DNA from: Actinomycetota bacterium
GTDB taxonomy: Bacteria; Actinomycetota; Thermoleophilia; Gaiellales; Gaiellaceae
DNA: 11,802 nucleotides
Assembly (NCBI GenBank): GCA_005883235.1
Contig: VAYE01000063.1
Location: forward strand, 1 to 11,802
Reading direction: 5' to 3'
Shown: one piece after another, positions 7,694 through 9,696 of the stretch
Numbering within the stretch: position 1 is the stretch's first letter
How the letters are laid out: each line of letters starts with the position of its first letter
Program-made: the position numbers and the translations under genes
Notes under the pieces: model-generated
What the model was told of the DNA's origin: nothing
The model's database searches: none
What the model saw: only the letters and a program-made list of their open reading frames with translations

Positions 7694-8761
7694 ATGGCGC
7701 AGGTTCTTCCTGCCGAGCACGAGCTGCGGCGCGTGATCGGAGACGGCGAGGGGGTTCCGGACCGCGAGGTGGAGGGCCTCGAGGAGGCCGATCTCCTCGA
7801 GCTGCACCGGTCGCTCGTCCTGCTCCGAACCTACGACGAGCGCTCGGTCGTGTACCACCGCCAGGGCCGGATCGGCACCTACGCGATCTTCTGGAACCAC
7901 GAGGCGATGCAGGCCGGGTCCGTCTACGCCCTGGCCGACGAGGACTGGATCTTCCCGAGCTACCGGGAGTCCGCGATCGGCCTCCTGCGCGGGATGCCGC
8001 CCTCGACGATCCTCTCCTGGTGGCGCGGCCACCCGGCCGGCTGGTGGAACCCGGCCGACTACAACGTCGCCTCGATCTGCGTCCCGATCGGCACGCACGT
8101 GCCGCACGCCGCCGGCCTCGCGTGGGGGAAGAAGCTCCGCGGCGAGAGCGCCTGCGCGCTCGTCTACTTCGGTGACGGGGCCACGTCGGAGGGGTCGTTC
8201 CACGAAGGCGCGAACTTCGCGGCCGTCATGGGCGCGCCGCTCGTTCTCTTCTGCAACAACAACCACTGGGCCATCTCGACCCCGCTCGAGGCGCAGACGC
8301 GCGCCGAGACCCTCGCGGACAAGGCCGTCGGGTACGGGATGCCGGGCGTGCGGGTGGACGGAACCGACGTGCTCGCCGTCTACGAGGCGACGCGGGAGGC
8401 GGTGGCGCGCGCACGGGCGGGCGAGGGCCCGACCTTCGTCGAGGCGGTCAGCTACCGGACGGCGCCGCACGCGACCGCTGACGACCCGCGCGCCTACATC
8501 GACCTCGAACGCGTCGAGGAGGAGCGGAAGCGGGAGTGCGTCGGGCGCTACGAGGGGTACCTCGAGCGGCTCGGAGTTCTGGACGACGAGCGGGTCGAGG
8601 CCGTGCGGGCAGAGGCGCAAGAGCTCATGCGACGGGGGATTGCGCAGGCGGAGGCGGAGCCGCCGCCGGATCCGGGGCTCGTCTTCGAGCACGCGTTCGT
8701 CGATCCGCCGGCGTCGTTCGGCTCCGACCTCGAGGAGCTGCGGAGGATCCTCGATGGCTGA
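7694..8761 (+). CDS. pdhA: Pyruvate (2-oxoacid) dehydrogenase E1 component, alpha subunit
   Basis: 355 residues, full length for E1 alpha. With E1 beta it decarboxylates a 2-oxoacid on thiamine diphosphate and passes the acyl group to the E2 lipoyl arm, in the cytoplasm. The N-terminal region has RTYDERSVVYHRQGRIGTY (45-63) and FPSYRES (87-93). The thiamine motif runs from GDG (160-162) to NNN (188-190), the standard spacing, followed by AISTP (193-197). The phosphorylation-loop region reads YRTAPHATADDPRAY. The style is that of the actinobacterial PdhA group; branched-chain 2-oxoacid E1 alpha is the main alternative, and sequence alone does not settle the substrate. The stop TGA at 8759-8761 lies inside ATGGCTGAGC, the likely former start of pdhB, so the two genes once overlapped. 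Transcription is probably leaderless. Confidence 0.92.
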   Translation: MAQVLPAEHELRRVIGDGEGVPDREVEGLEEADLLELHRSLVLLRTYDERSVVYHRQGRIGTYAIFWNHEAMQAGSVYALADEDWIFPSYRESAIGLLRGMPPSTILSWWRGHPAGWWNPADYNVASICVPIGTHVPHAAGLAWGKKLRGESACALVYFGDGATSEGSFHEGANFAAVMGAPLVLFCNNNHWAISTPLEAQTRAETLADKAVGYGMPGVRVDGTDVLAVYEATREAVARARAGEGPTFVEAVSYRTAPHATADDPRAYIDLERVEEERKRECVGRYEGYLERLGVLDDERVEAVRAEAQELMRRGIAQAEAEPPPDPGLVFEHAFVDPPASFGSDLEELRRILDG

Positions 8762-8763
8762 GC
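8755..8763. repeat. Left copy of the 9-bp direct repeat flanking the insert
   Basis: TGGCTGAGC, identical to 8870-8878 and 115 bp from it. The bases outside differ (A at 8754 against G at 8869; G at 8764 against T at 8879). This fits a target-site duplication around the 106-bp segment 8764-8869. Confidence 0.65.
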
Positions 8764-8778
8764 GCTGCGCCTTTCCGG

Positions 8779-8799
8779 TTAGCAACAGACTGTTGCAAG
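8779..8799. repeat. 21-bp palindromic repeat, copy 1
   Basis: Contains GCAACAGACTGTTGC (8782-8796), a perfect 7-bp inverted repeat around a single A. It is flanked by TTA on the left and AAG on the right, and is identical over 21 bp to copy 2 at 8833-8853. No third copy was seen in the window. Confidence 0.85.
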
Positions 8800-8832
8800 C
8801 TCGGAACGGCGCTACTCGCCGGCCCAATCCAC

Positions 8833-8853
8833 TTAGCAACAGACTGTTGCAAG
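8833..8853. repeat. 21-bp palindromic repeat, copy 2
   Basis: Exact 21-bp duplicate of 8779-8799, in the same orientation, 54 bp downstream start to start (about five DNA turns). The palindromic core is at 8836-8850. It ends 15 bp before the pdhB GTG start, so a protein bound here, or an RNA hairpin, could affect pdhB translation or transcription. Confidence 0.85.
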
Positions 8854-8868
8854 GGACGAAGGGAGACC

Positions 8869-9696
8869 GTGGCTGAGCTCTCGATCGTCGAGGCGATCAA
8901 CGACTGCTTCCACGTCGAGCTCGAGCGGGATCCCTCGGTGCTCGTCATGGGCGAGGACGTGGGTCGGGCGGGAGGGGTCTTCCGCGCCACGGCCGGACTC
9001 CGCGACCGCTTCGGCGCCGACCGCTGCGTTGACACGCCGCTCGCCGAGGCCGGGATCCTCGGCGCCGCGGTGGGGCTCTGCATGACGGGGTTCCGGCCCG
9101 TCTGCGAGATGCAGTACGACGCGTTCTAGACCTACTACGTCCACACGCCCGGCGTGAAGGTGGCGATTCCGTCCACTCCGGCCGACGCGAAGGGGCTCCT
9201 CGCCGCCGCCATCCGCGACCCGGATCCGGTCGTCGTGCTCGAGCCGAAGCTCCACTACCGGACGCTGCGCGGCGACGTCCCGGACGGGGAGCACGTCGAG
9301 CCGCTCGGGAAGGCGCGGCTCGCGCGCGAGGGGAGCGACCTGACGATCGTCGCCTACGGCTCGATGGTGCCCGTCGCCGAGGGCGCCGCGGACGCGCTCG
9401 ACGCGAGCGTCGAGGTGCTCGACGTGCGGACTCTGAAGCCGCTCGACGAGGAAGCGCTCCTCGCCTCTGCCGCCAAGACCGGCCGGGTCGTGATCGTCCA
9501 GGAGGCGCCGCGAACCTGCGGCTACGCCGCCGAGCTCGCCGCGATCCTCGCCGAGAAGGCGATGCTCGACCTGCAGGGGCCGGTCCTGCGGGTCACCGGC
9601 TACGACGTCCCCTATCCGTACTGGCAGATCGAGGACGCGTACATGCCGTCGGTCGAGCGTGTCGTCGACGCATGCCGGAGGTTGCTCGAGTTCTGA
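8869..9696 (+). pseudogene. pdhB: 2-oxoacid dehydrogenase E1 beta: in-frame TAG and ~48-residue gap
   Basis: Both parts are clear E1 beta. The first 86 codons (GTG at 8869) include VLVMGEDVG (25-32), DTPLAEAGILGAAVG (55-69, with the thiamine-contact Glu60) and MQYDAF (81-86). Then comes TAG (9127-9129), and the same frame resumes with TYYVHTPGVKVAIPSTP, PADAKGLL, VVLEPKLHYR and the C-terminal transketolase domain to the TGA at 9696. In intact homologues about 48 residues lie between MQYDAF and the resumed part, holding the R-x-P-x-GGG block and the conserved active-site His. They are absent, so suppressing the stop would not restore the enzyme. The frame is the same on both sides: a Ser TCN codon joined to a Glu GAG codon after an in-frame deletion gives TAG. 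Either a true deletion or an assembly error. The rest shows no decay. Confidence 0.85.
8870..8878. repeat. Right copy of the 9-bp direct repeat flanking the insert
   Basis: TGGCTGAGC, identical to 8755-8763. Together with the preceding G8869 it forms the GTG GCT GAG start of pdhB, while the left copy gives ATG GCT GAG. Confidence 0.65.

Follow-up and report, generated by a model that had tools for sequence, protein, structure and literature searches.

Chromosomal site networks such as matS/MatP, Noc and parS consist of near-perfect palindromes of approximately 13–16 bp, which are present in tens of copies and of which some are located inside genes. The palindromes called REPs were reported to exceed 100 copies per genome in most cases (PMC2817692) and to carry a foot tag, GTAG or CGTC (PMC3733652), and the REPIN doublets of P. 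fluorescens were described as having spacing peaks at 71 and 110 bp (PMC3116915). The mycobacterial MIRUs were described as entering overlapping stop/start codons with a short ORF that links the two genes, and a relay of translational coupling was proposed for them (PMC12548453).

In our study, a stretch of 11,802 nucleotides of a Gaiellaceae contig from a soil bacterium (VAYE01000063.1; hereafter the window) was found to contain a palindrome pair inserted between pdhA and pdhB, and related palindromes were found dispersed in the lineage, where they also flank a small gene. The family resembles the REPIN/RAYT systems in its doublets with peaked spacings, its location at gene ends and the presence of a cognate gene between such palindromes. 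It differs in that the cognate gene encodes approximately 97 amino acids without a Y1 domain, no Y1 gene was flanked by the same palindromes among the 12 of 27 Y1 loci examined, the copies numbered at most 57 per genome, and the arms in the flank profile read TAG/AAG/TTG instead of the GTAG/CGTC tag. As in MITEs, short copies of a longer gene-bearing element with internal deletions occur, whereas the target duplication of the window was not in excess at 105 other clusters and no known transposase is involved. With matS/MatP, Noc and parS the family shares near-perfect palindromes in tens of copies, some of them in genes, but it differs from them in having a gene between two sites, a copy with an internal deletion, an insertion that duplicated its target and a protein that matched no protein family. 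The window is like a MIRU in that the insert is located where a stop and a start overlap, with a short ORF that connects the two genes; this likeness is one of arrangement and not of sequence, the unit in the window is a palindrome pair, a small gene is associated with the family, and membership is not claimed. The window copy is most likely REPIN/MITE-like and non-autonomous. A literature search found no publication on such a palindrome/small-gene family, which is apparently undescribed.

The insertion at the pdhA/pdhB junction

The operon of the window encodes E1 of a 2-oxoacid dehydrogenase, with pdhA followed by pdhB on the forward strand. The pdhA gene (E1 alpha, 7694..8761; PF00676, E 2e-78) ended with the TGA stop codon at 8759–8761; its closest homologue showed 93% identity, and the named ones among the best 120 were Actinobacteria or Gaiellaceae bacterium. 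The pdhB gene (E1 beta, 8869..9696; PF02779 and PF02780) started with GTG at 8869. The 106-bp insert (8764..8869, forward strand) was flanked by the 9-bp direct repeat TGGCTGAGC, whose left, target copy was found at 8755..8763 and right copy at 8870..8878, both on the forward strand and recognised from the sequence and the junctions of relatives. Inside the insert, the 21-bp repeat TTAGCAACAGACTGTTGCAAG was present at 8779..8799 and 8833..8853, and its inner 15 bases (8782–8796 and 8836–8850) formed a palindrome centred on A, so that the insert holds GCAACAG-A-CTGTTGC twice, 54 bp apart. The palindrome gave four matches (two sites, both strands), against a mean of 0.15 and never four in 200 shuffled sequences.

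Relatives were collected by a pdhA profile search of genome contigs, which yielded 129, with 80 loci kept; the close ones, L001–L061, which include two loci titled as other phyla (L041 and L053) and leave out a cut-off close relative (L064), were examined at the junction. The junction length was counted in nucleotides between the stop codon of pdhA and the codons for VEAxN in pdhB, and both ends could be measured by script in 53 of the 61 loci, the other eight having no measurable ends. The junction was exactly 10 nt in 41 of the 53 relatives and 7–29 nt in 11, and it was 88 nt, without the palindrome, in L002. No palindrome, allowing two mismatches, was found in the junction of any of the 53, and that of the closest relative (L001) reads GGCGATGGCTGAGCTCTCGATCG. 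In the window the junction was 125 nt (10 + 106 + 9); the surplus over the usual 10 nt is exactly 115, which equals 106 + 9, and the segment is therefore an insertion with a 9-bp duplication in the pdhA/pdhB overlap. The first-pass annotation, which had proposed this insertion with its flanking repeats, its internal repeat pair with hairpins and an empty site in relatives, thus recognised a true insertion. The length of the duplication is less certain than the insertion, because the genes overlap in ATGGCTGA and seven of the nine repeated bases (TGGCTGA) are needed twice, for the pdhA stop and for the pdhB start, which leaves two bases as free evidence of duplication; a shared word of at least 9 in 40-nt flanks had a null frequency of 0.014. 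The whole 106-bp segment was not found in the 12 relatives searched, where only pieces of 15–44 bases around the palindromes matched.

An alignment with relatives placed an in-frame TAG in pdhB at 9127–9129, with approximately 144 nt (48 codons) missing and the frame otherwise intact, 250 bp downstream of the junction; the gene is interrupted either as a pseudogene or by an assembly error. An artefact or chimera at the junction itself, to which this interruption and the probable origin of the record as a metagenome contig could point, is very improbable, since the true target is duplicated, the surplus is exactly 115 and a palindrome pair of the lineage stands at a spacing of 54 that recurs in two other genomes (G187 and G295).

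The segment had been described as free of coding content and as uncoupling the two subunits. Neither statement agrees with an ORF of 40 codons and a stop (8754..8876, forward strand), which starts with the ATG at 8754 over the pdhA stop (ATGGCTGA), stays open across the entire insert and terminates at TGA 8874–8876, overlapping the new pdhB start at GTG 8869 (GTGGCTGA). GTG and TTG are native pdhB starts in many relatives (among 52 loci). Shine-Dalgarno-like sequences on the forward strand were GGAGG (8742..8746), 7 nt before the ATG, and AAGGGAG (8859..8865), at a short spacing of 3 nt before the GTG. The relay ORF is statistically weak, as the frame was also open in 0.335 of shuffled inserts. 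Bridging ORFs through palindrome pairs were present at two of 12 other codirectional junctions, both in G187: that of L230 has its start within a GTGA that overlaps the stop of the upstream gene and closes 4 nt short of the predicted start of the next gene, and that of L223 opens 4 nt past the stop of the upstream gene and closes within a TTGA that overlaps the predicted start of the next. Since the 40-codon ORF shares bases with the pdhA stop at one end and with the pdhB start at the other, in a MIRU-like manner, the coupling of pdhA and pdhB is probably kept despite the insert. The relay ORF would hand ribosomes on from the end of pdhA to the beginning of pdhB, and the window may represent an independent case of the MIRU solution, in which an overlapping gene pair is entered and its coupling is not cut.

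Searches for Rfam and tRNA elements, and for a promoter or terminator consensus, gave nothing. The palindrome was also considered as an operator of the TetR gene of the window and rejected, as the tetR-paaA intergene has a different sequence: at 2787–2829, between the paaA-like gene (reverse strand) and tetR, CTACCGAACGGTCGTTAGGG was found, which is a likely TetR operator unlike the palindrome of the insert.

Dispersed palindromes in the lineage

With up to one mismatch, GYAACAGNCTGTTRC was present in 12–53 copies in 15 of 23 genomes (12 pdhA relatives and 11 strict 20-mer matches) and in 0–6 copies in the other eight, and the reversed control gave 0–2. Exact copies numbered 2–33 in 11 of 25 genomes that were picked only as pdhA relatives, of which five also belong to the set of 23, and the control gave none. 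A stricter 20-mer of the palindrome was found in 16 of 399 genomes of the class. The loci fetched from six genomes contained 57 palindrome pairs, which is the doublet form of REPIN/RAYT systems; G008 and G039 contained 25 and 10 pairs with 3 and 4 singles, respectively, and the fetched loci of G001 and G153 contained singles only.

The pair spacings of G008 and G039 together cluster near 71, 83, 94, 105, 117 and 128, with a best period of 11.3 nt, whereas 8 of 10 pairs in G187 and 3 of 6 in G295 were spaced 54–56, like the 54 of the window, and these two genomes gave a period of 11.0 nt; in each case none of 2000 uniform draws was as good. Pooled over the six genomes the periodicity was weaker (R 0.44 at 12.5), and the pairs of G008 and G039 are partly orthologous. 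A second palindrome type (GTGGCTC) formed pairs in G173 and G090 at spacings of 69, 78 and 89, with a period of 10.1 nt for which no null was run; this set covers spacings up to 110 at the places listed in the GTGGCTCNGAGCCAC search.

The 57 pair clusters were located between convergent (23), divergent (3) and codirectional (18) ORFs, with 11 overlapping an ORF and two at contig ends, the ORFs being called by codon composition only. The excess of convergent over divergent places has a p value of 9e-5 with orthologues counted separately, and stop codons were often found inside the palindrome. Beyond the arms the flank profile showed only weak conservation. Direct repeats flanking 105 clusters were no commoner than in shuffled pairings, and the duplication in the window is therefore the only clear one; the first-pass annotation had suggested a check for 9-bp duplications at other copies. 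A simple MITE family that duplicates 9 bp was rejected on this result. In the related reading, the insert would be a MITE of an ordinary insertion sequence, as its 9-bp duplication allows; we consider this quite improbable, in view of the weak flank conservation, the missing duplication excess elsewhere and the gene between the palindromes, which has no transposase family match.

At the 3′ end of nuoN, a pair was present in G008, G009 and G187 and a single palindrome in G235, and pairs of other palindromes were found in G039, G239 and G295 (30 loci fetched, of which at least five, L288, L292, L298, L299 and L300, missed the nuoN end). The nuoN end of G239 contained a AACCTGGTT/AACCAGGTT hairpin pair and that of its close relative G303 contained none (L290/L291), which is a presence/absence difference of another palindrome family.

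The pairs, their preference for gene ends (23 convergent against 3 divergent) and the pairs of other palindromes in the nuoN slot of G039, G239 and G295 are what a classical REPIN, mobilised by a transposase of the RAYT (Y1/HUH) type, would show, and Y1 genes were present in 10 of 12 genomes tested. Such an origin is nevertheless improbable. Y1 was not found in the palindrome-rich G153 and G187 and was found in G003, G005 and G010, which lack the palindrome; in the 12 of 27 Y1 loci, no palindrome copy within one mismatch was present, and several contained other palindromes. With neither the distribution of Y1 genes nor the Y1 loci matching the palindrome, the RAYT link was rejected. Some Y1 genes (L202, L203, L205 and L211) adjoin other strong palindromes, e.g., TCGGTGCCAGGCACGTGCCTGGCACCGA, and belong to separate REP-like systems of the same lineage.

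The small gene between the palindromes

Two palindromes 385–401 bp apart around the same small ORF were first seen in four genomes. The product is approximately 97 amino acids long, and its AlphaFold model, of modest quality (mean pLDDT 73, pTM 0.54), contained five helices. The protein had 366 homologues, and the 120 listed were all unnamed or "hypothetical". The best Pfam match had an E value of 0.028 (for one of 39 members), NCBIfam, PHROGs and PADLOC gave none of note, and the best PDB profile match (E 0.044) was to a designed repeat protein. No transposase motif was recognisable, and the protein was not found in phages, plasmids or viral contigs. A phage or plasmid origin was rejected on this result and on that for the 21-mers, which were not found in viral contigs.

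Among the 399 genomes of the class, a profile search found the gene in 44; its absence elsewhere is not firm, because only 12 first-look candidates were scored per genome. Under a strict rule, a matching palindrome was present on each side in 22 of 30 gene loci, or 21 without L341, whose match is a chance-like GC one, and the flanking palindromes were 360–409 bp apart, centre to centre. Looser inspection added L331, L333, L346, L349 and L352, whereas L334 contained a palindrome on one side only and L345 (with a run of N) and L350 contained none. The strict palindrome and the gene co-occurred in 10 of 16 palindrome genomes, against 34 of 383 others with the gene (Fisher p 5e-7); the remaining 6 of the 16 had no gene match. 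Among the 23 palindrome-bearing genomes, eight had no gene match, including G001 and G153, which carry the GC-type palindrome of the window, and the gene of G295 was flanked by a palindrome other than GYAACAG.

The palindrome varied with the version of the gene: GTAACAGNCTGTTAC, GTAACACNGTGTTAC, GTTACAACNTGTAAC-like, GTGGCTCNGAGCCAC, GTGTTGANTCAACAC, GTGTCGAGTCGACAC and others were found, and the palindromes of two gene versions, in G147 and G198 for example, were GTAACAGACTGTTAC and GTGGCTCAGAGCCAC. The different palindromes each seem to be tied to a particular version of the gene. GTGGCTCNGAGCCAC, which was read off the gene flanks in G198 and G062, served as a test of dispersal and was present there in 23 and 57 copies, respectively. 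It was also present in 20 copies in G090 (with the gene between two of them), 51 in G173 (with a second gene copy beside one), 23 in G021, 5–6 in G327 and G247 and 1–2 in G051 and G007; it was absent from 11 of 20 genomes, and the control gave none. G021 and G327 contained GTGGCTC palindromes but no gene match. GTAACACNGTGTTAC numbered 7 in G173, 5 in G339, 3 in G247 and in G187, 2 in G170 and 1 in G007, and none in 16 of 22 genomes; its dispersal is slight, because two of the three in G247 and one of the two in G170 are the gene's own flanks. In G173 two gene copies (C8 and C210) were located beside different palindromes, of which 7 and 51 copies were found elsewhere in the genome, and two versions therefore coexist in one genome. 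An undescribed protein family whose palindromes change with it would offer a testable protein-DNA code.

Shortened copies and sites inside genes

A palindrome pair of G008 (L187), 128 bp apart, matched the gene element of G039 (L309) at its two ends (98% over 41 bp and 89% over 36 bp), and pairs can therefore be internally deleted copies of a gene element. Between the window copy and the gene element, only the palindromes match. The dispersal of the palindromes, the gene between them and this deletion copy indicate that the insert belongs, with good probability, to a family of mobile elements bounded by palindromes in a Gaiellaceae-like lineage, as one of its non-autonomous copies. The full element would consist of a palindrome, one small gene and a second palindrome, with 360–409 bp between the centres, and shortened copies would retain both palindromes. 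The window copy would have arisen as such a shortened copy, and the pair 54 bp apart would have entered where pdhA and pdhB overlap (ATGGCTGAGC), duplicating 9 bp. The small protein would bind the palindromes and help to move them, a role that we infer. The class of a small non-autonomous element had been guessed well in the first-pass annotation, as the dispersed palindromes and the deletion copy bear out; the segment as a whole had no other copy in the 12 relatives. Several results stand against this reading: the 105 clusters without an excess of direct repeats, the single sites in genes without gain of length, which insertion does not explain, the eight of 23 palindrome-bearing genomes without a gene match and the other palindrome around the gene of G295, the protein without a transposase motif, the weak relay ORF and the interrupted pdhB.

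The E2 gene of G153 contained a single palindrome and was eight residues longer than that of G001, in a linker. The polA gene of G187 contained a pair and was 21 residues longer than that of G012; it was dropped as proof of insertion, as Taq polymerase has the same length there and shows no large gap in the alignment. The single palindromes of G001 and G153 were often in the coding frame, and in comparison with solved homologues the length did not change in GlmM and PanC, had zero net change in phosphomannomutase, and increased by 1 to 3 residues in SelB and by 1 to 4 in a carboxylase. These in-gene single sites look as if they were made in place. Between genomes with approximately 60–97% protein identity, sites were present at orthologous places while the spacers changed.

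Because of the in-gene singles without length gain and the orthologous sites, the main competitor of the mobile element is the reading that the palindromes serve as binding sites, with or without mobility in addition. The palindromes would then be selected sites of a chromosomal protein, namely the small protein, whose own gene has a site on either side; the spacing of the pairs would let two bound dimers face one another, and the insertion in the window would merely have brought or kept a site pair. We regard this as possible, with less than even probability. It accounts for the orthologous sites kept while spacers change, for the sites within GlmM, PanC and phosphomannomutase and for the clade-wise periods of 11.3 and 11.0 nt (and 10.1 nt, without a null, for the GTGGCTC pairs). 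It does not account for pairs that are deletion copies of a gene element, for a palindrome on both sides of the gene, which autoregulation does not need, or for a 115-bp insertion, through which point selection does not create sites; the partial orthology of the G008 and G039 pairs and the weaker pooled periodicity also tell against it. The distribution in a 46% sample of the single-contig genome G021 bears on it from both sides: the 8 exact GTGGCTCNGAGCCAC matches (7 loci, L368–L427 set) were all located between 0.535 and 1.556 of 2.62 Mb, with an arc probability of 0.03, whereas one of three one-mismatch matches, at 2.215 Mb, was outside this arc. The clustering is no more than suggestive of confinement to a chromosome domain. 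Repeats that are usually deemed junk may be kept as binding sites.

A wider form of the mobile-element reading, which is rather doubtful and which we put forward tentatively, is that of a minimal mobile DNA without a known transposase, in which the helical protein of approximately 97 residues and a co-evolving perfect palindrome would be the whole system. It would spread as regularly spaced pairs, of which two versions can coexist in one genome (as in G173), would enter gene overlaps and keep them open, and might also convert resembling coding sequence into palindromes without a change in length. In the panC gene of G001 (L120), an exact palindrome was located over conserved core codons and placed two Cys where homologues differ; it encodes VATVCCK, and the solved homologues contained VCTVVTK and VATVVAR.
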